Shown here in pieces: positions 34,878 to 60,937 of a stretch of 64,000 nt of DNA. Source of the stretch: Clostridium sp. Marseille-P2415 (GTDB lineage: Bacteria; Bacillota; Clostridia; Lachnospirales; Lachnospiraceae). The notes under the pieces were generated by a model. It had not been told where the DNA came from. It was given only the letters and a program-made list of their open reading frames with translations, and searched no databases. The stretch is from positions 2,906,656 through 2,970,655 of the forward strand of contig NZ_LT732526.1 of the NCBI RefSeq assembly GCF_900155545.1, in the 5' to 3' direction. Both the position numbers and the translations under genes were made by a program. Within the stretch, counting starts at the first letter, position 1; every line of letters begins with the position of its first letter.

Positions 34878-34907
34878 ATTATATCATATATCCTTTGGAA
34901 CAATCCA
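34878..34907 (-). promoter_or_regulatory. Promoter of the heptose operon
   Basis: Minus strand TGGATT (34907-34902), 18-base spacer, TATAAT (34883-34878) preceded by TGA (extended -10). It lies about 53 bases upstream of hddC. Confidence 0.65.
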
Positions 34908-34940
34908 CTATATTTGGCATAAAGTTGGAAAGGCGGAAGG

Positions 34941-36029: not shown

Positions 36030-36053
36030 GTAATTCTCCCTGACTGGACGGTA

Positions 36054-36079
36054 CCGCACCCGGGGAAACCAGGGCGCGG
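36054..36079 (-). other. GC-rich hairpin in the intergenic spacer
   Basis: CCGCACCC and GGGCGCGG (one G-U on the minus strand) flank a 10-base loop. There is no T-run. It sits between the stop of the 1037-residue protein and the SD of the acyltransferase, so it may affect mRNA stability or partial termination. Confidence 0.35.
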
Positions 36080-36099
36080 CCGCCTTCCAGACAGTTCCT

Positions 36100-39979: not shown

Positions 39980-39992
39980 GCATACTTCCTCC

Positions 39993-41339: not shown

Positions 41340-41361
41340 TAAATCCTCCAAATTAAGCTGG

Positions 41362-42174: not shown

Positions 42175-42189
42175 GGTTTTCTCCTCTCA

Positions 42190-42744
42190 CTAAAATTTGA
42201 AGGTATCGCGGATTCCGCTCCATTTCTGGTCCTTATCGGAAATAATCAGCTTCATACCCTCTTCGACCGGCCAGTCAATGCCGATTTCCGGGTCACTCCA
42301 TAAAATTCCGCCTTCATCGCCCGGATGATAGAAATCGGTACACTTATACGCGAACTCCGCCTCATCGGACAGAACTAAAAATCCGTGTGCAAAGCCTTCC
42401 GGAATATAAAACTGCTTCTTGTTTTCCGCAGACAGCTCCACGCCAAACCATTTTCCGTAGGTCCCTGAAGAGGAACGTAAATCCACCGCCACATCAAATA
42501 CCTTTCCTCTCACGACCCGCACAAGCTTTCCCTGGGGAAACTGCTTCTGGAAATGGAGGCCACGCAGGACCCCTCTTACGGACATGGACTGGTTATCCTG
42601 TACAAAAACCATGGAAAGTCCGGCTTCCTTAAAATCATTCTGGTTATAGGTTTCCATAAAATAACCTCTGGAATCAGGAAATACCGTTGGTTCGATCACA
42701 TATAGCCCTTCAATCCCGCATTCTGTTACTTTTATCTTTCCCAT
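42190..42744 (-). CDS. rmlC: dTDP-4-dehydrorhamnose 3,5-epimerase
   Basis: 184 residues, cupin-fold RmlC: IEPTVFPDSRGYFMETYNQN, the catalytic-His block LRGLHFQKQFPQGKLVRVV, YGKWFGVELSAENKKQFYI, PEGFAHGFLVLSDEAEF and the C-terminal GGILWSDPEIGIDWP. It epimerises dTDP-4-keto-6-deoxyglucose en route to dTDP-L-rhamnose. No intact rmlA, rmlB or rmlD is in the window, so these must lie elsewhere. First gene of the second exporter operon. SD GGAG in AAAGGAGCATAAATTATG. Confidence 0.95.
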   Translation of the reverse strand: MGKIKVTECGIEGLYVIEPTVFPDSRGYFMETYNQNDFKEAGLSMVFVQDNQSMSVRGVLRGLHFQKQFPQGKLVRVVRGKVFDVAVDLRSSSGTYGKWFGVELSAENKKQFYIPEGFAHGFLVLSDEAEFAYKCTDFYHPGDEGGILWSDPEIGIDWPVEEGMKLIISDKDQKWSGIRDTFKF

Positions 42745-45184: not shown

Positions 45185-45227
45185 TGCCTCCTTCGCCTCC
45201 CTTCTTATTGTTTTATCATATTCATTT

Positions 45228-45236
45228 AGTATAACA
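45228..45236 (-). promoter_or_regulatory. Extended -10 element before the PucR gene
   Basis: Minus strand TGT-TATACT, about 45 bases before the ATG at 45184. The -35 is weak, so activator dependence or readthrough from allC is possible. Confidence 0.5.
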
Positions 45237-45285
45237 CAAAATAGCAGGAAACGGTAGTTAATGAGTGTCCTCATTGGGGCATAAT

Positions 45286-45309
45286 AGCCGGGCTTTGAAA
45301 AGCCCGGCT
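45286..45309. terminator. Perfect hairpin between allC and the PucR gene
   Basis: AGCCGGGCTT, 4-base loop, AAGCCCGGCT. No real T-run on either strand, so it is probably a weak terminator or attenuator after allC. Confidence 0.5.
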
Positions 45310-45339
45310 CCTGAATTTCAGGCTGTAAACTCATTTCCT

Positions 45340-46578
45340 CTATGCCAGCAATTTCTCCGCAAGTTCCGTCATAATGACTGATGCCTTTGCAAAATCACTG
45401 AATTTTGTAAATTCTACCGGGCAATGGCTTCTTCCATCTTTACTTGGAACAAAAAGCATAACCGCAGGGATCACCTGCCCGATTTCCAGCGCATCATGTC
45501 CGGCTCCGCTCGAAAGATACTTATAGCTGAATCCATGTTCTTTACAGCTTTCTTCCATTATTTTCAGCATATCCGCCGATAAATTTACCGATGTAATCTT
45601 AAGCTTGTTTTCCATTTCGTAACTGCCTCCCATCAGCTTTACTTCATGGTCCAAAGCAGTACGAATTCTTTTTGCAATGTCACTGATATTATCGTTGTTT
45701 CTTGAGCGGATATCCACTGTAAACCCGCACTTTTCAGCCACAATATTCATGCCTCCCGGAATCGTATTGATATATCCTACTGTTGCAACGGTTCCATCCG
45801 CTTTTTCTCTGGCCCAGTCCGCTATCTTTGAGATGACTTTGGAAGCAGCATCTACCGCATCCTTCCTCATGTCCATTGGTGTTGTTCCGGCATGATCTGC
45901 TCTTCCGTGGACTGTAACCATATATCTTTGAATGCCGACAATACAGTCCACCAACCCCAGTTCCGTTCCTTCCGCATCCAGAACAGGCCCCTGCTCGATA
46001 TGCATCTCCAGAAAATATCCAATAGAGCCTTCCGGCCATTTTGCCTCTCCGATCTTCTCAGGATCCAATCCATATCCTTTCATAGCGTCATAAATGGAAA
46101 TTCCGTCGGTATCTTTAAATTTCCCGCAATACTCTGCATCCCGGTTGCCCAGTATTGCTCCGGAGCCAAAATAACCGGTTCCAAACCGCATGCCTTCTTC
46201 ATCACAAAAGCCAACAACCACAAAATTTCTTTTTGGTGTAATGCAATTTTCCTTCAGCTCCCGTGCAACTTCTATCGCGCATACAATTCCTGCAATCCCG
46301 TCAAAGTCTCCACCATTCATTACAGAGTCATAATGAGATCCCATCATAACACATGGAAGCTCCGGATTTTCTCCTTCAAGGACACCTATTACATTTCCTG
46401 CCGCATCTTCATGCACTTTTAGCCCTGCTTCCCTCATAACTGTTTTAAGATATTCTACCGCATTTCTGGACTCTTTTGTAAAAGGAAGACGGGTACATCC
46501 TTCTCCCGGAGTTGCAGTATACTGTTTTAAACACTCCAAATCTTTGGCGATTCTGCCTGTTACCTCTTCAACAGCCAT
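45340..46578 (-). CDS. allC: Allantoate amidohydrolase (M20/hydantoinase-carbamoylase family)
   Basis: 412 residues. Dimetal-site motifs are in order: GSHYDSVMNGGDFDGIAGI (His and Asp ligands), CDEEGMRFGTGYFGS (Glu-Glu), HIEQGPVLD (His), and the C-terminal SGAGHDALEIG with SRSHCPVEFT-like His. GRADHAGTTPMDMRKDA is the dimerisation/active-site loop of the allantoate/N-carbamoyl subfamily. It hydrolyses allantoate to ureidoglycine, CO2 and ammonia. Cotranscribed with the LctP-like permease and small membrane protein upstream. A beta-ureidopropionase-type substrate is excluded mainly by context. Confidence 0.9.
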   Translation of the reverse strand: MAVEEVTGRIAKDLECLKQYTATPGEGCTRLPFTKESRNAVEYLKTVMREAGLKVHEDAAGNVIGVLEGENPELPCVMMGSHYDSVMNGGDFDGIAGIVCAIEVARELKENCITPKRNFVVVGFCDEEGMRFGTGYFGSGAILGNRDAEYCGKFKDTDGISIYDAMKGYGLDPEKIGEAKWPEGSIGYFLEMHIEQGPVLDAEGTELGLVDCIVGIQRYMVTVHGRADHAGTTPMDMRKDAVDAASKVISKIADWAREKADGTVATVGYINTIPGGMNIVAEKCGFTVDIRSRNNDNISDIAKRIRTALDHEVKLMGGSYEMENKLKITSVNLSADMLKIMEESCKEHGFSYKYLSSGAGHDALEIGQVIPAVMLFVPSKDGRSHCPVEFTKFSDFAKASVIMTELAEKLLA

Positions 46579-46847: not shown

Positions 46848-48458
46848 TTATATTCCCAGCAATACAAACAGAAACAATCCGATTACGATTGTAACCGGGA
46901 CCGTAACCATGAGAATTCTTTTTAGCACTTCCCCTTCACTTCCCAGAATTTCTGCTGTTGTGGTTCCCAGAATAATGTTGCTCGGGCTTACTGCACCTCC
47001 GATTGAACCGCCTGCTGACTGGGCTCCTAAAACAGCTGTCGGATCAACCTGCAGCAGATTTGCTGTTGTCATCTGGAATCCGCCGAATAAAATATTGGAG
47101 CTCATATTGCTTCCGGTCATAAATGTACCTAAAAGTCCCACAAAAGGTACCAGCGCAATATATACCTTTCCAAGCACGTTCGCAATTCCGTTGGCCAATA
47201 CAACCGTCTGGCCTGTTCCAGCCATAATTTTTGACATCATTACAAGACCAATGATCGCAATACCAGAAGGCATGGTCATGGAAACGGATTTAACAAATAC
47301 CCGCTTTGTCCCTCCCTCTTTTATAAAGCCTTTCTTCCTGTAATACAAAAGTCCGGCAACAGAAGACACCAGCAAAAACATGCTTGCATGCGTGAATGGT
47401 GCTAATGGGGAAAAACAGCCGCTTGCCGCATTCACGAATCCATATCCGGTCGAAGTCTCCGGAAAAGCCAGTCCAAACTGGAATTGCGCCAGAAACCCGT
47501 GAACCGGTTTTACTACGAGAACGGCCAGCGCAATCGCTGACAGCAGAAAATAAGGGACAAATGCCTGTACCAGCGTCATGCCTTTCGGAAGTTGCCCGCC
47601 CTCTTGTTTTGCAAATTCCCGATCCATGATCGGACTGTCTTCCAGGCTCCATTCATTTTTATACATTCTGGTTCTCCCCAGAAGAAGTATGACAAGCAAA
47701 GACAGGCAGGCCGGTACAAAGCAGGCTATCGTTGTGTTGACCTGCGTAAGCAGAAGTTGCCCTCCGCCTTGTATCAATGATAGAATGATCACTGCTGCCA
47801 GCCCCTTCCTTACAGCCTTTCCTCTTCCGTAAAACCAGCATACGACAACTCCCACAGCAATATTCCAGAACCAGATAAATACAGCAGTCCAAAATGCAGT
47901 CATCATATACTCTCTGCTTCCTGCTGCCAGACTGACACTCATGACCAAGGAATCCCACGCTGCTCCTAATGTTCCAAAAGTGTTTCCCCATGCCTGTCCA
48001 AGAAGGGGAATAATGACTGCCCAGACCGGCTGCACTCCGATTCCGATCAAAAGAGGGGCGCCAACGGCAACCGGAACACCAAATCCGGTAATTCCCTGAA
48101 GGAAACCTTCAAACACCCAGCCCATTGCAAGTACCAGCAGCAGTTCATTGGGCAGCAGCTTTCTCATTCCGTCCCGTATTACCAGAAAAGCTTTTGCTTC
48201 ATCGCCTACCTGATATAAAAGAATCGCTGTCCAGACAATAATCAAAATAATCAATGCATTCCATATGCCCTTCGCACTTTCCGATGCAATCACTGTTAAA
48301 TCAGCCTTAAAAAAAACAGCTCCCGTAATAATTGTTATAATAAGCCCGACAGGTGCAGCCTCCGTCGCTCCCCACCGGAATTTAATCATCAGGATCAATA
48401 ATACAATGATCGGCAGAAATGCCATTCCCCACGTAAATATATTAACTGGTATATTCAT
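46848..48458 (-). CDS. LctP-family (lactate permease-like) carboxylate transporter
   Basis: 536 residues with 13-14 TM helices. Family blocks: EGFLQGITGFGVPVAVGAPL, LLGQAWGNTFGTLGAAWDSL, SNMSSNILFGGFQ and the C-terminal AQSAGGSIGGAVSPSNIILG. LctP proteins move lactate, glycolate and related 2-oxo/2-hydroxy monocarboxylates. Here the gene is inside an allantoin operon, between carbamate kinase and allC. Lactate uptake is therefore unlikely; export of oxamate, a pyruvate/lactate analogue expected as pathway end product, or exchange of a ureide acid are plausible inferences. SD GAGGAAA. Confidence 0.88.
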   Translation of the reverse strand: MNIPVNIFTWGMAFLPIIVLLILMIKFRWGATEAAPVGLIITIITGAVFFKADLTVIASESAKGIWNALIILIIVWTAILLYQVGDEAKAFLVIRDGMRKLLPNELLLVLAMGWVFEGFLQGITGFGVPVAVGAPLLIGIGVQPVWAVIIPLLGQAWGNTFGTLGAAWDSLVMSVSLAAGSREYMMTAFWTAVFIWFWNIAVGVVVCWFYGRGKAVRKGLAAVIILSLIQGGGQLLLTQVNTTIACFVPACLSLLVILLLGRTRMYKNEWSLEDSPIMDREFAKQEGGQLPKGMTLVQAFVPYFLLSAIALAVLVVKPVHGFLAQFQFGLAFPETSTGYGFVNAASGCFSPLAPFTHASMFLLVSSVAGLLYYRKKGFIKEGGTKRVFVKSVSMTMPSGIAIIGLVMMSKIMAGTGQTVVLANGIANVLGKVYIALVPFVGLLGTFMTGSNMSSNILFGGFQMTTANLLQVDPTAVLGAQSAGGSIGGAVSPSNIILGTTTAEILGSEGEVLKRILMVTVPVTIVIGLFLFVLLGI

Positions 48459-48479: not shown

Positions 48480-49412
48480 CTATACATGAATAAGGGTTCC
48501 CGTCTTTCCGGTAATTCCGTCCGATGCTTTATCCAGCAGCGTAATTAACGTTTTTCTGCCTTTCCCGGATTCTGCAAACCGGATGGCTGCTTCGACTTTC
48601 GGAAGCATGGAACCTTTTGCAAACTGTCCCTGCGCAATACATTCTCTGGCTTTTTCTACTGTCAGGTCTGAAAGCCATTCCTGGTTTTCCTTTCCGAAAT
48701 TTACCGCAACCTTTTCCACAGCCGTCAGAATGACCAGATAATCAGCTCCTGTCTGCGATGCCAGCAGGCTGCTCACGTTGTCTTTATCAATTACCGCATT
48801 CATGCCGACAAGCTTCCCGGCTCTGCTGACAACCGGGATTCCTCCTCCTCCGCAGGTTATAACCACATGCCCTGCGTTCATGAGTGTCCTTATTGTTTCC
48901 AACTCCCGGATTCTCTTTGGCATGGGAGACGGTACGGCGATGCGGTATCCTCTGCCTGCATCTTCCATACACCGCACTCCATTTGCCTCATTTTTCTCCG
49001 CCTCTTCCTTCGTAAGAAATCTTCCGATTGGCTTTGTTGGATTCTGAAAGGCTTCGTCGTTCTCATCCACTTCCACCTGTGAAAGAATGGTAGAAACCTT
49101 TCCATCTATATTGCGCCTGAAAAATTCATATTTGATCGCATTTTGCAGGTCAATTCCTATATATCCCTGGCTCATTGCCACACTGGTCGGCAGAGGTACC
49201 TGTTTACAGCCTTCCTGCACCAGGGTAAGGTTATCCATGGCATTTTGAATCAGCCCCACCTGAGGTCCGTTACCATGTGTAACAATAATAGAAAACCCCT
49301 GTTGTACAAGATCCACGATAACCCTGGCTGTCCTGGCAACTGCTTCCTTTTGCTCTTCTATATCTTTGCCCAGGGCATTTCCTCCCAGGGCTATTACAAT
49401 TCTTTTATTTTC
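48480..49412 (-). CDS. arcC: Carbamate kinase
   Basis: About 310 residues from GTG 49412, which has AAGGAG six bases upstream and overlaps the fusion-protein stop by eight bases; longer in-frame ATGs have no site. Family motifs: RIVIALGGNALGK, VTHGNGPQVGLIQNA, QGYIGIDLQNAI, VITCGGGGIPVV, DKDNVSSLLASQ, TAVEKVAVNFG and GSMLPKVEAAIRF. It transfers phosphate from carbamoyl phosphate to ADP, yielding ATP, CO2 and ammonia. Coupling to the FdrA-DUF1116 gene shows its substrate is the carbamoyl phosphate released from oxalurate. Confidence 0.95.
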   Translation of the reverse strand, partial: ENKRIVIALGGNALGKDIEEQKEAVARTARVIVDLVQQGFSIIVTHGNGPQVGLIQNAMDNLTLVQEGCKQVPLPTSVAMSQGYIGIDLQNAIKYEFFRRNIDGKVSTILSQVEVDENDEAFQNPTKPIGRFLTKEEAEKNEANGVRCMEDAGRGYRIAVPSPMPKRIRELETIRTLMNAGHVVITCGGGGIPVVSRAGKLVGMNAVIDKDNVSSLLASQTGADYLVILTAVEKVAVNFGKENQEWLSDLTVEKARECIAQGQFAKGSMLPKVEAAIRFAESGKGRKTLITLLDKASDGITGKTGTLIHV

Positions 49413-52400
49413 CACGGCTTTCTCCTTCATCGAAACCCAGTTTCTTCGCATACGCCGTGATCGCTTTTTCAAAGCATTCCATCGGCGGATGCACCGTCCC
49501 TGCTCCTATTTGTCCATATCCGGCAATTTTATGGGCAATTCCTGTGTTGATTACCGGAGTAATTCCTTTTTCCACAACAAGCCTTGCATCAATTCCAAGA
49601 CAGATTCCCTGGAAATTCCAGTTTGGAATGATAAAGTTCGGATTCCTGTCAACGGTGATTTCCGCCATTTCTGTGCTGGTACGGAGCGCATCTTCATATC
49701 CGCCCGCCCCTACGAATCTTGTAACAGCAGGTGCAGCGATCATTGCCATGCCGCCTACCCCAAATGTTTCTGTAATTGCACTGTCTCCCATATCCGGGCA
49801 GGCATCCTCGCTGTCATAGCCTGTAAAATACAGCCCCTGCGGAGTATTTACCGGTCCTGTGAACCATTCATCACCCATTCCGGCAATGCGGATACCAAAT
49901 TCCACACCATTTCTGCACATCGCAGTCACAATCGTACCGTCTGTCAGAGTCCGTGCCGCATCCATAACTGACTTTCCGGTTGCCATCATAATATTCAAGA
50001 AGAACTGATCTGTATCTGACAGGAATTTAATAACGTCATAACGATCCTTTTCATCCATTTTCATTTTCGTAATTGCCGGGGCGACTTCTTTCAAAAATGC
50101 CAGAGAAGCAGCAATATTTCTTTGGTGGAATTCATCTCCCATGGCAATGGCTTTTGCAATAAGAGGATTTACATTAATTCCTCCTATCTCCCTGATTGCT
50201 GTTCCCAGGACCGGTCCAAGGACATCTCTCATCCAGCGGAGTCTGCTTACAACTTCTCCGGAGTATGCGCCGAAACGAAGTACCTTACCAATTCCCTCAT
50301 TCATGGTACAGTAAGCTTCATTCCCGTCTGTCGTATTTTCCACAACAAACACTGCCATATTCGGAGAGGTAATTCCGCCCATCGGTCCTACTGCCCTTAC
50401 AGAATGACAGGGAATGAATTTCACTTCTCCGGACTCCAAAAGCTTTCTTGCCTCTTCTTCGGTATCCGCCCATTCTTCAAAAAGAACTGCGCCCACACAT
50501 GATCCCTGCATCGGGTCCGGCATATCGCTGTAAGCAATCGGAGGACCTGCATGAAGGATGACTTTTCCTTCATTCAATTCAGGAATCACCTCTTTTGCAC
50601 GGACATTGTCTTTTATAACCGGCTGACTTGCAACGACTTTTGTGATTACTGCACGATTCGCCTCATCGATATCCAGATTTTTATAATTTCTAAGAAAATT
50701 CAGAATCTTTATTAATTCCACATTTCCGCCTGCCGGAGGCGTCCAATCGTACTGTACCACTTCACATCCAAACTGCTCTGCGACTTCTGAAAAGCTTTTC
50801 AGCCCAAGATTTATAATCTTTGGTTTCTCTGCCAGCATCTGCAGCAATTTTTCTGAAGCCTTTCCCGGAATCACATCCGAAACCTGCTTTGGCCGGATTT
50901 CTTTTTTCGGCTCCTCAAAGTCAAGACCAATCGACTGGATAGCCGTACGAACAGCAAGCTTATTTGTTTCGCATACAATAACTCCGGCATCCTTAAGCTT
51001 TTTCACCGCATCATCATACCCCTGGAAATCGCTTCTTGTACCGCAGACAGTTGCAATAAAGAAAACTTTTCTGCCTTCTTTCTCTGCCTTATCACGAAGT
51101 TCCTTTATTGTCGGAAGCAAAGCTCCTGCCATGTCTGCATGAGATCCATATCCAAGCATGATATCCAGAAGAATTACTCCTGTAGATTCATCATCAATTG
51201 CTTCTTTCATGCATTCGATTCTTTTTGCGGGATCAATCATCGGATGGGGCTTGCCCTGTGTATATACATCATCACCCAGATCTACAACGATGTGCCCTCC
51301 GGTTTTCAGCATATATCCTTCTGCTTTTTCCGGCGGAATTTTAAGCTTCAACGCATCTTTCATCAGCATAGCAGCTTCTCCGGCAAGCGTTCCGCCTGAG
51401 TAATATGCCTTGATCGTCTTCTTCGCTTTTGCAGGATAACATGCGGATTTATCCACATGAACCTCACCTTCATTTACCTTTTCCCCGCGTACCAGACTGA
51501 CTGCCAGACGGGCTGCTTCATCAAGTGTATATGTATGATAGAAATTCTCCTCATGATATTCCGGTTTTTCTCCCAGGAACAAAGTAATTACCGGTTTCCT
51601 GCTGACACTCAGTCTTGCTGAAATTTTTTCTCTGACTGATTTTGCCGGCGGCTTGGAAATTACGATCATGACCTTCACGCTGTCATCATCTTCCATTGCA
51701 TCGATCATATCCATCATAGTAATACCACCGACTTCCGTCGACAGATCCCGGCCGCCGGTCCCTATGGCGTTTTTTACACCTTCGCCGAGACGGTCAATGA
51801 TTGTAGTAAGCTCCTGGATGCCTGTTCCGGATGCCCCTATAATTCCAATGGCACCTGGTGTTACACGGTTTGTAAACGCAATCGGCACACCCTGAATAAT
51901 GCTGGTCCCGCAATCCGGGCCCATAACAACAAGTCCTTTTTCATGTGCCTTTTCTTTCAATTTCTTTTCGTCCTCAATCGTGACATTGTCACTGAACATG
52001 AACACGTTCATACCCTCATTTAATGCCCGGTCTGCCTCAAGGGCCGCATAGGCTCCCGGTATGGAAATCACCGCAAGATTGGCATCCGGAAGCTTCTCCA
52101 GTGCCTTGTCCCATGATTTTACATTTTCTGCTCCTGTCTTATTTTCTGCAGATGCGGACTGCTTCTTTAAGAATTCCTCTGCTTCTTCCATAATGGTATC
52201 AAGCATACTGTCATCTTCCACGTCGGCAACAACAACCATATCATTTGCTGTGGATTCCATTAATTCTTCCGTATCCAGACCGCTCTGCTTAAAAATATCT
52301 TTGTTAGCCGGCGTCGCCATCATGACAGAAACTTTGTTTACTCCTTTGATTGTTGATAACTGGTTTGTAAGAAGCATCAGTACCACTGAATCATGATAGC

Positions 52401-52428
52401 TTCCTTTTTTTACTACTGTTCTTAACAT
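49405..52428 (-). CDS. FdrA-DUF1116 fusion, predicted oxamate carbamoyltransferase subunits AllF-AllG
   Basis: 1007 residues. Residues ~1-505 are FdrA, a succinyl-CoA-synthetase-like protein: VVMGPDCGTS (~167-176), GIIGASGTGIQELTTI (~195-210), GTGGRDLS, and ILLDIMLGYGSHADMAGAL in the second ligase-like half. Residues ~536-1000 are a DUF1116 domain: QYDWTPPAGGN, HAGPPIAYSDMPDPMQGS, SVRAVGPMGGITSPNM, MGDEFHQRN. In E. coli these are separate proteins (FdrA/AllF and YlbE/AllG) that, with YlbF/AllH, form oxamic transcarbamylase, turning oxalurate and phosphate into oxamate and carbamoyl phosphate. The AllH-like partner is at 57202. The single long frame has no frameshift. Confidence 0.92.
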   Translation of the reverse strand: MLRTVVKKGSYHDSVVLMLLTNQLSTIKGVNKVSVMMATPANKDIFKQSGLDTEELMESTANDMVVVADVEDDSMLDTIMEEAEEFLKKQSASAENKTGAENVKSWDKALEKLPDANLAVISIPGAYAALEADRALNEGMNVFMFSDNVTIEDEKKLKEKAHEKGLVVMGPDCGTSIIQGVPIAFTNRVTPGAIGIIGASGTGIQELTTIIDRLGEGVKNAIGTGGRDLSTEVGGITMMDMIDAMEDDDSVKVMIVISKPPAKSVREKISARLSVSRKPVITLFLGEKPEYHEENFYHTYTLDEAARLAVSLVRGEKVNEGEVHVDKSACYPAKAKKTIKAYYSGGTLAGEAAMLMKDALKLKIPPEKAEGYMLKTGGHIVVDLGDDVYTQGKPHPMIDPAKRIECMKEAIDDESTGVILLDIMLGYGSHADMAGALLPTIKELRDKAEKEGRKVFFIATVCGTRSDFQGYDDAVKKLKDAGVIVCETNKLAVRTAIQSIGLDFEEPKKEIRPKQVSDVIPGKASEKLLQMLAEKPKIINLGLKSFSEVAEQFGCEVVQYDWTPPAGGNVELIKILNFLRNYKNLDIDEANRAVITKVVASQPVIKDNVRAKEVIPELNEGKVILHAGPPIAYSDMPDPMQGSCVGAVLFEEWADTEEEARKLLESGEVKFIPCHSVRAVGPMGGITSPNMAVFVVENTTDGNEAYCTMNEGIGKVLRFGAYSGEVVSRLRWMRDVLGPVLGTAIREIGGINVNPLIAKAIAMGDEFHQRNIAASLAFLKEVAPAITKMKMDEKDRYDVIKFLSDTDQFFLNIMMATGKSVMDAARTLTDGTIVTAMCRNGVEFGIRIAGMGDEWFTGPVNTPQGLYFTGYDSEDACPDMGDSAITETFGVGGMAMIAAPAVTRFVGAGGYEDALRTSTEMAEITVDRNPNFIIPNWNFQGICLGIDARLVVEKGITPVINTGIAHKIAGYGQIGAGTVHPPMECFEKAITAYAKKLGFDEGESRGK

Positions 52429-52442
52429 ATTGGCATTTCTCC

Positions 52443-53495
52443 TTATTCTGCAAATCTGTTTTTGTGATCATACCTGTTAAAATGGACCGCATCGCTATTT
52501 AAATACTCATAAATAGAATCTACGATTTCAATTCCGCCGGTCTCATAAGCATTGTCCCGTCTCATAACTGCCCTCTCGCCCGGATAGTATACTTTGTTAT
52601 ATCCTTCTGCCGGCGGTATTGCGTTTAACTCATCGCAGGTAACGGACATGTTTTTCTTAAACTCTTCTATTCCTGTAAAACGCTTCGGATCCATAACAAT
52701 ATGCATCTGTCCCAGCTCTCTCCCTTTCGAGCAGTCATGATACATGGAGCTTACATGCTTGCCGAAAGGCACGCCCAGAAGGATTCCCGAAAAAACATCC
52801 ACCATCATCATAAGGCCATATCCTTTTGGGCCTGCAATCGGAACCAGCGCGTTTACTTTCTTAGGATCTGTTACCGGATTCCCTTTTTCATCTACAGCCC
52901 AGGTATCCGGAATGGATTCTCCCCTGGATCTTTTATCCAGAATCTTGCCCCATGCCTGCACCGTGGTTGCCATATCAAATACGACTTTTCTTTCATCCGC
53001 CGTGGGCGCTGCAAAAGAAATTGGATTTGTTCCGTAATACGGCTCTGTTCCTCCGGTCGGAACCGCCATTGGATCTGACTGGCAGAAGGAAATTGCCACC
53101 ATGTCCCGGTCTGCTGCCATTTCCGTATAATATCCCAAAGAACCGCTGTGTGAAATATTACGGATACCAACAACTGCAATACCATTTTTCTCTGCCATTT
53201 CAATTGCCTTATCCATTGCCATTTTCACAGCCACATATCCGCATCCATTATCCCCTTCGAAAATAGCAGAACACGGACCTGTTTCCTTAAATTCAAAATG
53301 GGGATCTGTTGTAATGCCGCCTTTCGAAATTCTCTCACAATAATACTCTACTCTGACAGCCCCATGAGAATGGTATCCTCTCTCATCCGACCATGTCAGG
53401 ATTTCTGCTGTGATATCAGCATGATCTTCTTTCAATCCGGATTTCATCAATTTTTTTTTCATTAAATCTTTTAGTTCAGCTCTTAAAAGCTTCAT
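52443..53495 (-). CDS. allD: Ureidoglycolate dehydrogenase (malate/L-lactate dehydrogenase-2 family)
   Basis: About 350 residues from ATG 53495 (GAGGAAA before it). Ldh_2 fold: catalytic-His block VVGIRNISHSGSLGYYTEMA, SFCQSDPMAVPTGGTEPYYG, TNPISFAAPT, VFDMATT, and IAGPKGYGLMMMVDVFSGIL near the C-terminal third. With NAD(P)+ it oxidises (S)-ureidoglycolate to oxalurate, the substrate of the next gene's product 14 bases downstream. Malate, lactate or sulfolactate oxidation are family alternatives, but the context is decisive. Confidence 0.9.
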   Translation of the reverse strand: MKLLRAELKDLMKKKLMKSGLKEDHADITAEILTWSDERGYHSHGAVRVEYYCERISKGGITTDPHFEFKETGPCSAIFEGDNGCGYVAVKMAMDKAIEMAEKNGIAVVGIRNISHSGSLGYYTEMAADRDMVAISFCQSDPMAVPTGGTEPYYGTNPISFAAPTADERKVVFDMATTVQAWGKILDKRSRGESIPDTWAVDEKGNPVTDPKKVNALVPIAGPKGYGLMMMVDVFSGILLGVPFGKHVSSMYHDCSKGRELGQMHIVMDPKRFTGIEEFKKNMSVTCDELNAIPPAEGYNKVYYPGERAVMRRDNAYETGGIEIVDSIYEYLNSDAVHFNRYDHKNRFAE

Positions 53496-53524
53496 TTCTA
53501 TTTCCTCACTTTCATAATTAACGG

Positions 53525-53552
53525 TTAATATGTTACAGCAAATTATGACCAA
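53525..53552 (-). promoter_or_regulatory. Promoter of the allD operon
   Basis: Minus strand TTGGTC (53552-53547), 16-base spacer, TATTAA (53530-53525), 30 bases upstream of the ATG at 53495. The shared motif at 53627-53641 lies about 75 bases further upstream. Confidence 0.5.
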
Positions 53553-53626
53553 CCAGTTTTTATTTATCTATTATCACTATTTTTCCTTCCCTTTTCAATC
53601 AAATAACTAGATAAATGTACTTTTGA

Positions 53627-53641
53627 TTTTTATCCACTTTT
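53627..53641. promoter_or_regulatory. Shared 15-bp motif TTTTTATCCACTTTT, copy 1
   Basis: Identical to 54663-54677. It lies 132 bases upstream of the allD start. Candidate activator site. Confidence 0.45.
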
Positions 53642-53679
53642 GTGATATTGTGATTTCTTTTATCATATTTAGGCATGGA

Positions 53680-53724
53680 AAAACCGGCTTATCGGTATAT
53701 GTCAGATACCGATAAGCCGGTTTT
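53680..53724 (-). terminator. Intrinsic terminator of allE
   Basis: Perfect 19-bp stem (AAAACCGGCTTATCGGTAT and its complement) with a 7-base loop. On the minus strand it ends in six T. It starts about 32 bases after the allE stop. Confidence 0.95.
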
Positions 53725-53755
53725 CACGGATATATTAATTTTTGCAGCCAATCTT

Positions 53756-54544
53756 TTAAAGCTTCACATCTCTGTTGCAATCTTTGGAATATATATATGT
53801 AAGCTCTTCTTCACGTCCGACTGCATAACATGCCTGGGGGCAGTATGCGTCCATAAATACATAATCGCCTTTCTTTACCGGAACCCAGTCGTTATCCAGT
53901 CTGTACATTGCGCTTCCGGAAAGGAAGTACATTCCATGCTCCTGAACATGAGTCTCTATATATCCGTGAGAAGCCCCTAAATGGAATCTCAGAATATGCA
54001 TATTCATATCAAATCCAAAATCCTCCGCTGCAGGAAGGAAATCCCGGATAAAGCAGTTTTCCATACCTTCATAAGGAGTCCACGGAAGGTTATCTGCATT
54101 TCCGGCTACTGTATGAGCGCTGTGTCCTTCCAGCGCTTCATATCTGCGTTTATAGGCAAACAGCTTCGCGTCTTCTTTTCCCGCATTTGCAAAAGATACC
54201 GTCTTGCTTACCGGTGAATAAATATACCCGCCTTCTGTAAGAGTCTCTTCTTTGTCTGCGTTTTTCACTTTAACGGAACCTTCGATTACATAAATAAATG
54301 TTTCCAGTCCTTCTCCACCGAATGCGGGGTTATTTCCCCCTTCATGGACCGTTACAAGGTAGTCCGCAAAAGAAGCACCCATTGCAGGAGATCCGAGAAT
54401 CGTAACATCACATTTTTCATATCCCGGAATCGCGTTTTTTACAATCCCGTCCGGTTCAATTAAAACATAATTTTCTTTTTTTACAACGGATCTGGTAGCC
54501 AATAAATCATCACGGTAACCCGTTTGCCCGTTTAAATAGCTCAT
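53756..54544 (-). CDS. allE: (S)-ureidoglycine aminohydrolase (bicupin)
   Basis: About 262 residues from ATG 54544 (GAGGAG seven bases before); a longer in-frame ATG at 54592 lacks a site. Two cupin domains: the first with GGNNPAFGGEGLETFIYVIE, the second with YIETHVQEHGMYFLSGSAMY and GDYVFMDAYCPQACYAV, carrying the Glu/His/His/Gln-type metal set of AllE/UGlyAH. It releases ammonia from ureidoglycine to give (S)-ureidoglycolate. Monocistronic, with its own terminator, divergent from the alpha/beta hydrolase gene. Confidence 0.93.
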   Translation of the reverse strand: MSYLNGQTGYRDDLLATRSVVKKENYVLIEPDGIVKNAIPGYEKCDVTILGSPAMGASFADYLVTVHEGGNNPAFGGEGLETFIYVIEGSVKVKNADKEETLTEGGYIYSPVSKTVSFANAGKEDAKLFAYKRRYEALEGHSAHTVAGNADNLPWTPYEGMENCFIRDFLPAAEDFGFDMNMHILRFHLGASHGYIETHVQEHGMYFLSGSAMYRLDNDWVPVKKGDYVFMDAYCPQACYAVGREEELTYIYSKDCNRDVKL

Positions 54545-54605
54545 AATTAATCTCCTCACTTTTCTTTTGGTCTGTTCCTGGCAGGCAGCCAATATCTATA
54601 TGTTC

Positions 54606-54634
54606 ATTATTGCAGGTATTCTATATTATTTCAA
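54606..54634 (-). promoter_or_regulatory. Possible promoter of allE
   Basis: Minus strand TTGAAA (54634-54629), 17-base spacer, AATAAT (54611-54606), about 62 bases upstream of the start. The -10 is imperfect, as expected for an activated promoter. Confidence 0.4.
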
Positions 54635-54662
54635 TTGTAAGATGCGATAAAAGCCCTCCTTT

Positions 54663-54677
54663 TTTTTATCCACTTTT
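54663..54677. promoter_or_regulatory. Shared 15-bp motif TTTTTATCCACTTTT, copy 2
   Basis: Identical to 53627-53641. It lies 119 bases upstream of allE and just upstream of the divergent hydrolase promoter. Confidence 0.45.
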
Positions 54678-54711
54678 CCCCCGTTTGTTTATTTTTTAAC
54701 ATTTATTTTTA

Positions 54712-54720
54712 TGCTATAAT
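54712..54720 (+). promoter_or_regulatory. Extended -10 promoter of the alpha/beta hydrolase gene
   Basis: TGC-TATAAT at 54712-54720. A transcript starting about seven bases later leaves only the ATG at 54771 with a usable leader. Confidence 0.6.
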
Positions 54721-54770
54721 CTTCTTGTAACAATATGAACGATCTCTTAACAGCAGGAAGGAATTCCAGT

Positions 54771-55622
54771 ATGATTACTCAAAAAGAAATTACGTTGAAT
54801 GAAACATCTTATCCGGTAAAAGCCACCATATACCAGAATACAGACATCGTTCCCCGGGCATGCGTTTTATACTTTCATGGCGGCGGACTCCTGTACGGAT
54901 CACGCTTAGATCTGCCTGAATTGCACTTAAACAGCCTTACAGACGCCGGATGCGTGATCATTTCCTATGATTATCCTCTTGCTCCCGCCGTAAAAATCGA
55001 CTTTATCATAAATAATGTTGTTGATTCCATCAATCACTATGTTAAACATCCGATGCGTTATGCTGCCCGGGAACTTCCCTATTTTCTCTGGGGCCGTTCT
55101 GCCGGAGCATATTTATGCCTGCTTGCTTCTGCCAGCGGCCGCCTTCTCCTGCCTCCAAACGGAATCCTTTCCTATTATGGCTACGGCTTCCTGTGCGACA
55201 GCTGGTTCAGTACTCCCAGCAAATATTATTGTACTTTGCCGGCAGTTCCTGAATCCTGCCTCCTTGCTGTTTCAGACCGGGTTCATACGGAAGGAGATTT
55301 GGATACGCACTACAGCATTTATGTTTATGCCAGGCAGACAGGCACATGGAAATCTCTTTTTTACGATGGACGGGACAAATGTTTCTTTCTGGATTATTCG
55401 CTCCGGGCCTGTGATAAACTTCCGGCTCCCTTATTCTGTGCGCACAGTATCAATGATACGGATGTTCCATATTCGGAGTTTCTCGAGCTATGCGGCAAGT
55501 ATCGGGCAGAGAAATTTATTGTTTCAAGAGCAATGCACGATTTTGACAGAGATGAAACGGATTCTCTTACCGTTCAGCTTCTCAAGGCAACTGTACATTT
55601 TTTAGAAATTCATCTTATTTGA
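54771..55622 (+). CDS. Alpha/beta hydrolase (HSL/formamidase-like) of the allantoin cluster
   Basis: About 283 residues from ATG 54771 (GGAAGG nine bases before); an ATG at 54735 is too close to the -10 box. Oxyanion motif FHGGGLLYGS, nucleophile elbow WGRSAGAYL, acid in SINDTDVPYSEF and His in RAMHDFDRD give a complete serine-hydrolase triad with the HGGG hallmark of the hormone-sensitive-lipase/kynurenine-formamidase group. There is no signal peptide, so it is cytoplasmic. Its 3' end overlaps the convergent allantoinase gene by eight bases. No allantoin-pathway step is known to need it; the substrate is unknown. Confidence 0.8.
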   Translation: MITQKEITLNETSYPVKATIYQNTDIVPRACVLYFHGGGLLYGSRLDLPELHLNSLTDAGCVIISYDYPLAPAVKIDFIINNVVDSINHYVKHPMRYAARELPYFLWGRSAGAYLCLLASASGRLLLPPNGILSYYGYGFLCDSWFSTPSKYYCTLPAVPESCLLAVSDRVHTEGDLDTHYSIYVYARQTGTWKSLFYDGRDKCFFLDYSLRACDKLPAPLFCAHSINDTDVPYSEFLELCGKYRAEKFIVSRAMHDFDRDETDSLTVQLLKATVHFLEIHLI

Positions 55623-56988
55623 TTTTTCTGATCAGTGTTCCATACCCCTTTTTCCCAACAAGCTTTCCATCTTCAGCGATAACATTGCCGCGTACAATTG
55701 TGCAGACCGGCAGTCCTTTTCCTTTCATTCCTACAAAAGCGGAAATCTTGTTCACATATAGAAGAGATTCTTTTGTAATCTCCCATTCCTTATTTGCATC
55801 AATAATGAGAAGATCTGCATCGAATCCTGCTCTGATATCTCCTTTTCTGCCGTAAATTCCAAAAGCTTCCGCCGGTTTTTTTGCCATTGCATTTGCCAGA
55901 ACAGACGGTGAAATGTTACGTTTCACGCAGCCTTCATAGAAGCTTACCTGGAAACCGCTCTGGATTCCGCTGATTCCGCCCCATACATCAAACACATTCT
56001 CGATTTTATTCCCCAAAATCTCATTGTATTTCTCATCATAAGCACATGGGGAATGGTCACTTGCAATTCCGCTGAATGTACCGTCTTCTACATAGGTCCA
56101 TAATCTTTCGACTTCTTCCTTTGAACGCAGAGGCGGCGCACATTTAAATAAAGGTCCGTTTTTCAGCACATTTTCATCTGTCATACTTAAATAGTGAGAA
56201 CAGGTTTCTGCTGTGATATCGTATCCTTCCTGCTGCGCTTCTTTGATTTTCTGCGCAACATCCGGACTGCTCACATGGCAGATATGAGTTTTACAGCCTG
56301 TTGCTTTCGCAAGTTCAATGACATCAACGGTAGCAATCATTTCTGCAATAACCGGTCTGGAATCCAGAAAGCCCTGCCAGTCAAGTCTGCACTCTTTTTT
56401 CATTCTTTGTTCCTGCCATTTAATTGTTGCAAAGTCCTCGCAATGGAAACCGGCACGTCCGTCAAACCCCCGGATAATCTGCATTGCTTCGTATACCTGT
56501 CCATAATTCAATGAACTGTAATCGGGTGACACCGGTCCGATAAAGGATTTAAACGCTACACATCCTTTCTCGTCCAGCCCTTCCAGATCCCGGAAATTAT
56601 CCGGAATCAGACCTCCCCAGAAGCAGTAATCCACATATGCATTCGGAGATACCTTTTCAAACTTTTTATTAAATATTTCCGCATTGGTCATAGCGGGTTC
56701 GTTCTGCAGCGGCATATCAATCACGGTTGTATATCCGCCTACAGCAGCAGCGGCAGTTCCATGCCCGTAATCTTCACGCCATTCATATCCCGGATCATTC
56801 AAATGTGCATGCGTATCAATTGCACCGGGGAATACATAGTTTCCTTTTGCATCAATTACTTTCTCAGCTTCCGGTTCTTCTCCTGCAATAAGAATTGCTG
56901 CAATTTTACCTCCTTTCACCGCGATATTTCCCTGAAAAACACAATCTGTCGTTACAATCTTCCCATTTTTCACTAATAAATCATACAT
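55615..56988 (-). CDS. allB: Allantoinase (cyclic amidohydrolase), copy 1
   Basis: 457 residues. All metal-site elements of the dihydroorotase/allantoinase family are present: DTHAHLNDPG (HxH), VAFKSFIG (carbamylated Lys), FHCEDF, THICHVSS and ASDHSP (Asp). GHGTAAAAVGGYTTVIDMPL is the allantoinase-type substrate loop. It opens the hydantoin ring of allantoin to allantoate. SD GGAGG. Divergent from the DUF2877 gene. Paralogue of 59561-60937. Confidence 0.88.
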   Translation of the reverse strand: MYDLLVKNGKIVTTDCVFQGNIAVKGGKIAAILIAGEEPEAEKVIDAKGNYVFPGAIDTHAHLNDPGYEWREDYGHGTAAAAVGGYTTVIDMPLQNEPAMTNAEIFNKKFEKVSPNAYVDYCFWGGLIPDNFRDLEGLDEKGCVAFKSFIGPVSPDYSSLNYGQVYEAMQIIRGFDGRAGFHCEDFATIKWQEQRMKKECRLDWQGFLDSRPVIAEMIATVDVIELAKATGCKTHICHVSSPDVAQKIKEAQQEGYDITAETCSHYLSMTDENVLKNGPLFKCAPPLRSKEEVERLWTYVEDGTFSGIASDHSPCAYDEKYNEILGNKIENVFDVWGGISGIQSGFQVSFYEGCVKRNISPSVLANAMAKKPAEAFGIYGRKGDIRAGFDADLLIIDANKEWEITKESLLYVNKISAFVGMKGKGLPVCTIVRGNVIAEDGKLVGKKGYGTLIRKIK

Positions 56989-57103
56989 ATTTTTTCCTCC
57001 AATCCCGATTTTGGTTGATTACTGGCTGGTCAAACATTTTTCATCATTTTAGTTAATAACGCTTCTAAAAACAATGCAAAAAGAAGTGAAATTTCGCTTA
57101 AAC

Positions 57104-57113
57104 TTTTGTCCAA
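57104..57113. promoter_or_regulatory. TTTTGTCCAA, partial match to the shared motif
   Basis: Shares TTTT-R-TCCA with the 15-bp repeats at 53627 and 54663. It lies in the divergent region between allantoinase 1 and the AllH-like gene, 116 bases upstream of the allantoinase ATG. Confidence 0.3.
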
Positions 57114-57137
57114 CATGTACAATTTATGTCATTATGT

Positions 57138-57166
57138 TTGTGTTTTTCTCAGCCTTTTGCTAGAAT
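57138..57166 (+). promoter_or_regulatory. Promoter of the allH-like gene
   Basis: TTGTGT (57138-57143), 17-base spacer, TAGAAT (57161-57166), 35 bases before the ATG at 57202. Confidence 0.65.
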
Positions 57167-57201
57167 ACATAATATAAAACAGAAAGAAAAAGGGATCTGC
57201 T

Positions 57202-58065
57202 ATGCTCTTCTACATTTCATCCATTGCATCATATTCTTTAAAAATATTAACTTCCGTCACAGAGGGCCATGTACACTCCGTATACCGGAAAACAATAAAT
57301 CTTCAAATCGGGACCTGTCTGCTGGCATTACAGGCAGCCTCTTCTCCCATATCCCCTGTCAGCCTCATTACCGAACTGGATGCACAATCCATGGAAGCAC
57401 TTCCTGTTCTTCGTAATCAGCGGGTTAAAATAAGTCCCGGCAGAATATCGATATACGGTTCCGACACTGTTTTTCACTTTTGTTTTTCAAAAGCTCATAT
57501 ATTTGACTCAGAACTATCCTCCGGATCTTCCTCACTATCACGGGATTTACTGAAGTCTGTGCTGGAACGGTCCTCCGCCGGAGGCTTCCGTACTATTTTT
57601 GTCCCCTCTTGTACTGAATCCGGCAACAATGAAATGGATCAGGCTCTTGTAACTGCCGCCGCAAGGCAGCGTCTTTCAGCCTGCCATACTTTTATGCATG
57701 TTCCGGATTATGACAGAGCCGCTGACGAATTGATTCATTTAATCGGATTAGGCATCGGACTTACCCCAAGCGGTGATGATTTTTTGTGCGGCGTACTGGC
57801 TGGCCTGACACTTTCAGGAAATTGGGACCATCCTTTTGCATCAATTCTCAGAGAAAAAATAACAGCGAATCTTCATAACACAAATGATATCAGCCGGACA
57901 TTTATCTGCTGTGCACTTTCCTCTCACTTCAGCAAACCGATCAAGGATCTGATCCCTCCTTCTTCTCCCGGAGAAATCCTCGCTTCATTTGAAGCAGTGG
58001 GCCATTCCTCCGGTATCGATTCTCTCTGCGGAATATATTATGCTCTCTCTCTGGGGCGTGTTTGA
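57202..58065 (+). CDS. allH: DUF2877 protein, predicted third subunit of oxamate carbamoyltransferase (AllH)
   Basis: 287 residues. The C-terminal half carries the DUF2877 signature GLGIGLTPSGDDFLCGVLAG (~185-204) and GHSSGIDSLCGIYYAL near the end, with SCTESGNNEMD in the middle. E. coli YlbF/AllH of this family is the small subunit working with FdrA and YlbE. Here it is not in the fdrA operon but 5 kb away on the opposite strand, still inside the regulon. AAGGGA ribosome site six bases before the ATG. Confidence 0.88.
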   Translation: MLFYISSIASYSLKILTSVTEGHVHSVYRKTINLQIGTCLLALQAASSPISPVSLITELDAQSMEALPVLRNQRVKISPGRISIYGSDTVFHFCFSKAHIFDSELSSGSSSLSRDLLKSVLERSSAGGFRTIFVPSCTESGNNEMDQALVTAAARQRLSACHTFMHVPDYDRAADELIHLIGLGIGLTPSGDDFLCGVLAGLTLSGNWDHPFASILREKITANLHNTNDISRTFICCALSSHFSKPIKDLIPPSSPGEILASFEAVGHSSGIDSLCGIYYALSLGRV

Positions 58066-58200: not shown

Positions 58201-59550
58201 TCAATCCTTTTCGCCGCGTTTTTTTAAATATTTTGTCAGAACATAGTAAACGATTCCTGCAGGCAAAATGCTTGCCAGCCATGATACATCAATGAAAACA
58301 AGCCCTACCGTCACGCCTGCTATCATAGCCCCGATTGCCGCCGGATTCATTCCTTTAAATGATCCTTCCGGATCATAATAGTCACTTAAGTTTACATTCT
58401 GCTTTTTAATCATATAGTAGTCCACAACCAGGATCGCGAAAACCGGTCCCAGGACCGCAGAAGAAATCAGAACAAAAAGATTTAATCCAGCCGCGGAAGA
58501 CTCTTTCACAAGTTCCCAGGGAAAAGTAACATACGCGAGCAGTCCGACAATAACCGCGCATTTCTTCAGCGAAAGCTTCAGAAGATCTACCAGCACATAA
58601 ATCGGAGGCAGCGCATTATTCAGCATATTTGTGGTAAGCGTTCCGCATACGATACACAATAATGTAACTACGACAATCGCTTTATTCGGCATAATATATG
58701 CAAAACCTACAATCGGATTGGCAATTCCGGTTACGCTTGTAACAAGCAGGCCAATCACTCCCATGAATACAACAGCCGGAATCATAGCAAAAGCATATGC
58801 TGATCCCCGCTTTACCGGGCCGCATCCAGGTCTTAACTGTCTTACGGAATCACCGATATTTACCAAAAGCGCACAGTTTACACCAATGAAGGATGTAACC
58901 GCTCCAAAGAACGGAAGCCCCCATGATCCTTCCTGGTTCACAACTTCTGTTACTACATCTCCATGCATGTTCAGAATCGTGATCAGCATGTAAATCAGCG
59001 CTATCATAACAATAGCTCCGCCAATATTATTGATGACTTTGATTCCCTGAAACCCCAATGCAGAAAGTCCGATCTGCAGGGCCTGGAAAATAATGAACCA
59101 CACGACAATACTGTCAAAACCAATCAGTATTTTACTGATTTCATTGATTGCCGATGCGCCCACCCAGCTCTGAAAGCCATACCATACAATTGCCGGAATT
59201 CCTCTGCACAGTGCGGGGATCACGGTTCCTTTAAAGCCAAATGCACCTCTTAACTGCACTACATATGGAATTCCGGTAGTGTAACATAGCTTGTCATTTA
59301 ACACCATGCATATCACGCACAGGGCTGATCCAAATGCAATTGCAATGATTGCCTGAACAAGATTCAATCCTCCTGAAACCAGGTCAGAACCAAGTGTTAA
59401 GTTTGCGGTAGAAACACATCCTCCAAGCCATACAAGCCAGTAGGAAGATGCCTTCATAGTTCTCTTACTCATAGGAACAGGCACCATCCCATCCCGTTTA
59501 TTGGCTGCATCCACTGCTTTTCCTTCTGTTTTCAGTTCACTTTCTTCCAT
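58201..59550 (-). CDS. NCS1-family allantoin/purine permease
   Basis: 449 residues, 12 TM helices. NCS1 signatures: SSYWLVWLGGCVSTANLTLGS, GIPYVVQLRGAFGFKGTVIP, GIPAIVWYGFQSWVGASAI (Trp-Tyr-Gly substrate-binding region), and NMLNNALPPIYVL. Transporters of this family take up allantoin, hydantoins, cytosine or uracil with Na+ or H+. Cotranscribed with allantoinase 2 (ten-base gap), so allantoin is the probable substrate. Confidence 0.9.
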   Translation of the reverse strand: MEESELKTEGKAVDAANKRDGMVPVPMSKRTMKASSYWLVWLGGCVSTANLTLGSDLVSGGLNLVQAIIAIAFGSALCVICMVLNDKLCYTTGIPYVVQLRGAFGFKGTVIPALCRGIPAIVWYGFQSWVGASAINEISKILIGFDSIVVWFIIFQALQIGLSALGFQGIKVINNIGGAIVMIALIYMLITILNMHGDVVTEVVNQEGSWGLPFFGAVTSFIGVNCALLVNIGDSVRQLRPGCGPVKRGSAYAFAMIPAVVFMGVIGLLVTSVTGIANPIVGFAYIMPNKAIVVVTLLCIVCGTLTTNMLNNALPPIYVLVDLLKLSLKKCAVIVGLLAYVTFPWELVKESSAAGLNLFVLISSAVLGPVFAILVVDYYMIKKQNVNLSDYYDPEGSFKGMNPAAIGAMIAGVTVGLVFIDVSWLASILPAGIVYYVLTKYLKKRGEKD

Positions 59551-59560: not shown

Positions 59561-60937
59561 TTATATATGGTCTTGTCTTTGTGACACTCTGGCGGGCGTG
59601 ATCAATTTTCCTCCTGAAACTGCTGTGATTTTACCGTCTTTGAAAATTGTTCTGCCACGTACAATCGTCTGTGCAACTTTTCCTTTAAATTTCATTCCCA
59701 CATAAGGACTCACTTTATGTAAATAGAATAAGGACTCTGCATCCAACACATATTCTTTATCCAAATCCACAATTGCAAAATCTGCATCGTAGCCTGTCCG
59801 GATTTTGCCTTTTCCTTCAATATGAAACACCTCATTTACATTGGATGCGGTCAGTGCTGCAACCTTTGTAAGCATAAGTTTTCTATCATGATAGCCATGG
59901 GTAAGAACTGCAGAAAGCGTACTCTGGCATCCGGATATACCTCCCCATGCTTTCATAAATTCTTTCTCTTTTAATTTCGGATCGCTGGGAGAATGATCCG
60001 ATGAAATAAATGTTATTTCACCGCTAAACAATTTTCCCCACATCTTCTGCCGGTTCCCTGCGTCGCGGATAGGAGGAGAACATTTGCCCAGAGTGCCAAG
60101 TCTTTCTACGTCTTCGTCAGTCAAAATCAAATAATGGCCGATTGTTTCGCAGGACACATCTACGCCCCGTTTTCTCGCCTCCGTAACCAATTCCACGCCT
60201 TTTGCCGTGCTCACATGGGCAATAATAAGTTTACATCCCGTTTCTTCTGCAAACGTGATCATTCTGGAAATACTTTCGATTTCAGTAATCGGCGCGTGGG
60301 CTTCAAAATAATCCATAATACCCGTTTTGTTCTGTACATTTTTTAAGTCTGTCATTTTCCTTGTAATTCCGTCATTTTCACAATGAACCATAAGCGGAAG
60401 ATTCAGTTCTTTCAACTTCTGCATACCTTTGTAAGCCGTATAATCATCAATTCCAGGAAATTCATCGATTCCGCTAAAGCAGGAGAAAGCTTTAAACCCG
60501 ACAACCCCGCACTCGGCGAGCTCTTCCAGTTTGTCTAAGTTTGTCGGACATAATCCTCCCCACAGACCGAAATCACATACAGAATCTCTTCTTGCAATTT
60601 CCAGTTTCTTTTCAAAATTTTCTTTATCAAGTGTACACGGAGAACTGTTCAGCGGCATATCAAAAAATACTGCTCCGCCTCCTGCTGCCAGAGATTGACT
60701 TCCGTTTTTTATTGTTTCCCATTCCGTTCTTCCCGGATCATCGAAGTGCACATGTCCATCTGTTGTTGCCGGAAATACGTATTTCCCTGACACATCAATT
60801 ACTTCTTTCGCATCCTGAGATATTTCTTCGGCTATTTCCGCTATTTTCCCGTTACTTACACCAATATCTGCTTTTTCAATTTTATCTGGAAATACAACGA
60901 TTCCGTTTCTAATAATAAGCTCCATATTTTTGCCCAT
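59561..60937 (-). CDS. allB: Allantoinase, copy 2
   Basis: 458 residues, start ATG 60937 with GGAGG. Family elements: DGHVHFDDPGRTEWE (HxH), VGFKAFSC (carbamylated Lys), MVHCEND, LIIAHVST, ISSDHSPSD. The DDPGRTEWET block and FDMPLNSSPCT look closer to classical AllB than copy 1 does. It catalyses allantoin to allantoate. First gene of the unit with the permease, so it is probably the uptake-linked allantoinase. All metal ligands are present, as in copy 1. Confidence 0.9.
   Translation of the reverse strand: MGKNMELIIRNGIVVFPDKIEKADIGVSNGKIAEIAEEISQDAKEVIDVSGKYVFPATTDGHVHFDDPGRTEWETIKNGSQSLAAGGGAVFFDMPLNSSPCTLDKENFEKKLEIARRDSVCDFGLWGGLCPTNLDKLEELAECGVVGFKAFSCFSGIDEFPGIDDYTAYKGMQKLKELNLPLMVHCENDGITRKMTDLKNVQNKTGIMDYFEAHAPITEIESISRMITFAEETGCKLIIAHVSTAKGVELVTEARKRGVDVSCETIGHYLILTDEDVERLGTLGKCSPPIRDAGNRQKMWGKLFSGEITFISSDHSPSDPKLKEKEFMKAWGGISGCQSTLSAVLTHGYHDRKLMLTKVAALTASNVNEVFHIEGKGKIRTGYDADFAIVDLDKEYVLDAESLFYLHKVSPYVGMKFKGKVAQTIVRGRTIFKDGKITAVSGGKLITPARVSQRQDHI

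Follow-up and report, generated by a model that had tools for sequence, protein, structure and literature searches.

The window analysed here, a 64,000-nucleotide stretch of contig NZ_LT732526.1 of Clostridium sp. Marseille-P2415, carries an allantoin gene cluster in which AllF (FdrA) and AllG (DUF1116) are encoded by a single open reading frame (ORF), with genes for AllH (DUF2877) and the carbamate kinase AllK nearby. The E. coli system, AllF-AllG-AllH (FdrA, YlbE and YlbF), was identified in 2024 and shown to be the transcarbamylase, encoded by three genes, unlike those known before it and of unsettled subunit arrangement (PMC11326118). Homologues of these three and of AllK are all present here with the same pathway neighbours; in contrast to E. 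coli, AllF and AllG form one chain, AllH is encoded 4.8 kb away on the other strand and AllK follows directly after the fusion. At the seam of the fusion lies a module of about 50 residues, which in E. coli forms the C-terminus of AllF, and it is this module that constitutes the new point. In the portions of the literature examined, which were of open-licence PMC papers only, we found no mention of either the AllF-AllG fusion or the module.

A preliminary description of this locus had read the fusion as one frame of 1007 residues, and family and structure matches to both halves bear this out. The NCBIfam FdrA model NF004760 covers residues 1–579 (721.8 bits, cut-off 433), the Pfam AllG family PF06545 matches residues 669–883 (E = 3e-96; 321.5 bits against 27), and the crystal structures of E. 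coli FdrA (3dmy) and of a DUF1116 protein of E. faecalis (3clq) can be aligned with residues 80–582 and 587–993 respectively. Both halves are therefore about full length, and they are joined with nearly no extra linker. Searched by sequence, neither the fusion nor AllH contains a Pfam domain of aspartate or ornithine transcarbamylase (ATCase/OTCase) at E ≤ 0.001. The AllF, AllG and AllH homologues, together with the grouping of AllG described below, make the system a probable AllFGH-type oxamic transcarbamylase (EC 2.1.3.5); the three separate polypeptides of E. coli, which are not found here, describe one studied case and are no requirement.

The fusion had also been presented as a rearrangement; the proposed search of other genomes shows it to be the usual form among the AllG-bearing genomes sampled in its family. 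Within the window's genus, AllG is present in 13 of 25 sampled genomes (its own included), where the genes are fused in six, fused but cut by a contig end in one (G019), broken by frameshift in one (G023) and separate in five. Across the family, 24 of 397 genomes possess AllG; 19 are fused, four have separate genes only, and one (G657) has fused pieces on different contigs plus separate copies. Among 398 genomes of the phylum Bacillota, AllG was found in 60, two of them fused by open-frame length; overlong frames at loci L041 and L042, considered as fusions, turned out to be separate genes. A fusion-profile scan of genome contigs, with both patterns lying within AllF and favouring close kin, returned 77 loci, comprising 47 fused (some cut by contig ends), 25 separate, one frameshifted, two with AllF only, and two without AllF or AllG at the threshold used. 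Fused hosts include Lacrimispora, Sellimonas, Drancourtella, Butyricicoccus, Mogibacterium, Baileyella, Sporofaciens, Suipraeoptans and Facklamia. In Enterococcus faecalis a 3012-nt gene on a plasmid record (WP_002355249.1) likewise encodes AllF, module and AllG in one frame, and is already annotated, merely as FdrA; E. gilvus has separate genes. In the Actinomycetota, Embleya and Nonomuraea (L180, L181) have AllH followed by fused frames of 959 and 947 residues, with a weak module between AllF and AllG.

In an AllG tree of 128 rows, built by a quick method with YahG on a long branch, after removal of duplicates, broken copies and rows of fewer than 300 aligned residues, the fused state requires three changes, and the window's AllG groups with E. 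coli AllG rather than YahG (Shimodaira-Hasegawa-like approximate likelihood ratio test, 100 for the set). A tree of AllF plus AllG for a chosen subset of 39 loci separates the fused rows into two groups, and a single group is rejected by the approximately unbiased test (p-AU = 0.0007); E. faecalis falls in a different fused group from the window. Lacrimispora and Sellimonas supply the rows nearest to that of the window. In the AllG tree, fused rows sit in the E. coli AllG clade alongside rows with the module on AllF and a separate AllG; N-terminal and separate modules fall with YahG or on branches that are long and uncertain (L063); the rows placed do not include the actinobacterial fusions. 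The fusion is an ordinary form of this recently identified enzyme, and the fused state has changed more than once.

The module, which the preliminary description had missed, occupies residues 529–583 of the fusion, approximately, with the consensus N-x-G...F...W-x-P-P-A-G-G, and in the predicted structure it forms a strand-helix-strand-helix unit with the first AllG helix immediately after. Its position varies: it is C-terminal on AllF in E. coli, internal in fusions, N-terminal on AllG of the YahG type, or a small frame of its own. E. coli itself has YahE, YahF, YahG and YahI, paralogues of AllH, AllF, AllG and a carbamate-kinase-like protein, encoded by separate genes with the module at the N-terminus of YahG. 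In 13 separate pairs (12 distinct, L015 and L063 being one locus) the module is in neither AllF nor AllG, and in all 13 a small frame between the two encodes it (37–81 bits, with all other frames below 0). These genes have 56–60 codons, counted from whichever start is closest to the module, with good ribosome-binding sites in some and not in others. Four such peptides match positions 505–555 of NCBIfam FdrA (E = 1e-14, 4e-12, 1e-10 and 4e-3) but no Pfam family, and one separate module matched residues 430–473 of 3dmy (E = 5e-8). A single separate peptide gave 157 matches in plasmid records, and 57 of the 60 listed were annotated at the matched position, always with fdrA and/or DUF1116/yahG. 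At three loci (L189, 5411–8394; L190, 4570–7548; L191, 4093–7062) the order is reversed to AllG-AllF-module, with the module after AllF in its own open frame of 65–149 amino acids.

Altogether 145 distinct module DNAs were collected: 62 in fusions, one in a frameshifted fusion, 37 on AllF, 30 on AllG and 15 separate. The script itself gave 62, 37, 30 and 16 alone; the module at L150, where AllF is broken, was moved from alone to AllF, and one 'AllF' module was reassigned as the frameshifted fusion of G023. The module lies within 900 nt downstream in 140 of 141 distinct AllF genes (those with at least 700 nt available beyond the aligned end), the sole exception being Methylocystis, where AllG carries the module and is not encoded beside AllF. 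A six-frame scan of 2.37 Mb returned 180 hits of at least 12 bits, all adjoining AllF or AllG, although these loci had been chosen for AllF or AllG and only their flanks act as a control. A less biased survey covered the 398 Bacillota genomes with a profile of 20 modules and at most 16 candidates scored per genome; the module was detected in 57 of the 60 with AllG and in 0 of 338 without it (Fisher p = 6e-66, uncorrected for kinship); the three AllG genomes lacking it (G083, G264, G386) have no AllF in the stretch around AllG. Frames shorter than 100 amino acids accounted for 21 of the 64 matches, a few of these at contig ends. The window's genome has one module, the next match having E = 0.8. 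DUF1116 genes of Rhodococcus (L183), Azospirillum (L184) and Paraburkholderia (L185) have no AllF or module nearby, and the same holds for the additional copies of AllG that G657 and G695 carry; because AllG copies without AllF also lack it, the module goes with AllF and not with AllG as such. The Azospirillum gene lies near hpxZ of oxalurate catabolism.

The enzyme family described as three-subunit thus seems, from these comparisons, to have a fourth, portable part. The strongest alternative holds that neighbouring genes of an operon became joined neutrally, and that the module has no function in itself, being just the tail of AllF or the head of AllG. AllF and AllG do adjoin in separate loci, with a gap of only 9 nt in E. 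coli, and fused and separate forms coexist within the window's genus. However, none of the 141 AllF genes lacks a module in its locus, and the separate small frames preserve the protein sequence of the module (of seven pairs, the two that allowed an estimate gave dN/dS values of 0.04 and 0.12), neither of which is expected of a dispensable tail; we consider neutral joining unlikely.

AllH is found together with AllG in nearly all genomes. Of the 397 genomes sampled in the family, 24 have AllG, 23 have AllH and 22 have both (Fisher p = 9e-33, uncorrected for kinship), and the two draws agree in the genomes listed. The co-occurrence anticipated in the preliminary description is evident in 66 of 68 AllG genomes asked (68 of 97 found), the two without AllH (G583, G795) being unfused; the window's genome has one copy each of AllG and AllH. 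AllH persists although unlinked. Its position some 5 kb off on the other strand was correctly noted, the distance from the fusion gene's 5' end being 4.77 kb, but this arrangement is lineage-specific: among relatives of the window with a fused locus, AllH often lies on the opposite strand, 4.8–10.8 kb upstream of the middle of AllG, sometimes on the same strand (Butyricicoccus), or is not in the available stretch, and in Facklamia and E. faecalis it comes directly after the fusion, in the latter with an overlap.

Among 42 fused loci with enough downstream sequence, 39 have AllK at most 2.6 kb after the fusion and in the same orientation. The window's kinase scores 313.6 against a cut-off of 266 for subfamily NF009007 and 342.3, just below the cut-off of 358.25, for the equivalog TIGR00746 (arcC). 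Its likely GTG at 49415 stands behind AAGGAG (49427–49422), with an in-frame ATG at 49430 and TTG at 49472 further upstream, so that the eight-base overlap reported earlier is confirmed as 8 nt before the fusion's stop (TAA, 49407–49405), or 11 nt with it. This overlap accompanies a C-terminal extension of the window's fusion in the alignment and is not conserved; where AllK is next, the fusion stop and the aligned AllK start are 15–155 nt apart, and 15–16 nt in the closest relatives (L098, L099, L100, L147, L148).

Given an AllF-AllG fusion with AllH and AllK in an allantoin cluster, the enzyme is very likely an oxamate (oxalurate) carbamoyltransferase with an ATP-yielding end, its activity being assigned by analogy with E. 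coli AllFGH. Some other carbamoyl compound might be the substrate, as YahEFG-type paralogues are found near cysteine hydrolases, xanthine permeases or an amidohydrolase. This is improbable, since 34 of the 41 fused loci with sufficient sequence have AllD, the source of oxalurate, in the same orientation and no more than 5 kb upstream, and since the tree groups the AllG half with AllG of E. coli and not with YahG. It has further been proposed (PMC3364942) that AllF is an oxamate:CoA ligase outside the transcarbamylase (the CanOE hypothesis), which would suit its CoA_binding and Ligase_CoA domains. Unlike succinyl-CoA synthetase alpha, however, the AllF of the fusion is joined to AllG and lacks the phosphohistidine motif; GHAG occurs in none of the 171 AllF-type frames, counting duplicates and partial ones, sequence homology to SucD ends at SucD residue 237, before the GHAGA of His246 in E. 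coli SucD, and deletion of E. coli allF abolished oxamate formation (PMC11326118), all of which makes the ligase reading very improbable. An error of sequencing or assembly, such as a frameshift, is refuted as the origin of the single frame: many assemblies made independently, some of them from named isolates, show the same frame of some 1000 residues. Nothing was found in support of such an error beyond one frameshifted copy, in G023. In that single-contig genome (L061, L169) frameshifts affect the majority of the genes mapped at the locus, probably through assembly noise.

Several observations weigh against an oxalurate carbamoyltransferase of which the module is a fixed part at the interface. 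In E. coli, oxamate formation was restored to 16% by allGH without allF and to 7% by allFG without allH (PMC11326118), and because of these partial restorations one of the subunits may not be needed, or a paralogue may stand in for it. The module's N, G, F, W, P and G residues are conserved at 98–100% of 128 distinct modules, but these were selected by the module's own profile. AllG copies with no adjoining AllF (L087, L093, L183–L185, L195) have no module, and in the two actinobacterial fusions its scores are as low as 25 and 17 bits. In the predicted structure, the AllF half fits 3dmy only at 19 Å root-mean-square deviation. Finally, in the oxalurate-type clade the module is found only on AllF or in fusions; N-terminal and separate forms are YahG-side (L063 uncertain), and the module's independence is therefore seen in paralogues with no assigned substrate.

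The neighbouring genes (Table 1) form an allantoin cluster. The AllD start was set to the twentieth residue of its ORF, at which the match to the family model starts. The AllE coordinates are those of the ORF as listed, and the real start probably lies more internally. Within the cluster, a gene for an alpha/beta hydrolase runs on the other strand (54735–55622, +) and is kept in several related loci. The window's genome has no detected ureidoglycolate lyase (0 of 1, with a positive E. coli control) and no convincing urease, Urease_alpha giving two partial matches (E = 4e-4 and 7e-4), one of which is the second AllB-like frame of the window, with the first tallied as just over the cut-off; the oxalurate route is therefore the only one found from ureidoglycolate by these gene searches, ureidoglycolate amidohydrolases not having been sought. 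In the scan of genome contigs, 35 of the 41 fused loci with sufficient sequence have a gene of the lactate permease family no more than 4.5 kb downstream of AllG, against 0 of 24 loci with separate genes. Oxamate is an analogue of pyruvate and lactate, and for this reason the protein may export oxamate. Elsewhere in the window, ORFs scanned at 2315–17368 and 33051–42744 are mostly of surface-polysaccharide type (glycosyltransferases, an ABC exporter with a Wzt C-terminal domain, a Wzy_C ligase, YfhO and a sugar transferase).

Table 1. Genes and parts of the fusion in the window, with the evidence for each
Feature	Position	Strand	Evidence
AllF-module-AllG fusion, ATG start, 1007 aa	49405..52428	-	ORF and family matches
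AllF (FdrA) portion, residues 1-526	50851..52428	-	residues 97-314 with succinyl-CoA synthetase alpha fold
Portable junction module, residues 527-583	50680..50850	-	profile comparison, predicted structure
AllG (DUF1116) portion, residues 584-1007 and stop	49405..50679	-	family and structure alignment
AllK carbamate kinase, from likely GTG	48480..49415	-	AAGGAG 49422-49427 within fusion gene
AllH (DUF2877), third subunit	57202..58065	+	PF11392, E 9.5e-22, 78.2 bits, cut-off 25
AllD ureidoglycolate dehydrogenase (oxalurate-forming)	52443..53495	-	TIGR03175, 581 bits, cut-off 496
AllE (S)-ureidoglycine aminohydrolase	53756..54592	-	TIGR03214, 342 bits, cut-off 200
AllB-like allantoinase 1	55615..56988	-	TIGR03178, 416.5 bits, cut-off 357.85
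AllB-like allantoinase 2	59561..60937	-	TIGR03178, 518.6 bits
Cytosine/purine/allantoin family permease	58201..59550	-	PF02133
Allantoate amidohydrolase	45340..46578	-	subfamily NF006771; under AllC equivalog cut-off
Lactate-permease-family transporter, between AllK and amidohydrolase	46848..48458	-	PF02652
PucR-type purine catabolism regulator	43520..45334	-	family match

We think it likely that these genes specify the final part of the anaerobic pathway of allantoin degradation, with the junction module as a fixed part of the enzyme family. AllD would form oxalurate, the AllF-module-AllG chain with AllH would phosphorolyse it to oxamate and carbamoyl phosphate, and AllK would use the latter to make ATP; of the complete ATP-yielding branch first proposed, the gene content (AllF-AllG, AllH, AllK and the allantoin cluster) stands and the activity is predicted. 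Since the module accompanies AllF in every arrangement and can be joined to either partner, we think that it probably sits at the AllF-AllG interface, whether attached to one of the two, to both or to neither, where its conserved residues could bind substrate or hold the subunits together. On balance we favour, with rather less assurance, an unrecognised fourth component of the enzyme: a module of about 50 residues with a catalytic or clamping role, which changes its place among the subunits (on AllF, on AllG, or between the two in one chain), is a separate protein of about 56–60 residues in a number of Bacillota, and without which the enzyme would be unable to work. The fusions offer a 1:1 AllF:AllG chain for structural work and suggest which ends meet, and the portable module gives a precise and testable hypothesis on the AllF-AllG interface. 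Where the module is a separate gene, cloning the AllF, AllG and AllH homologues alone would omit a conserved part.

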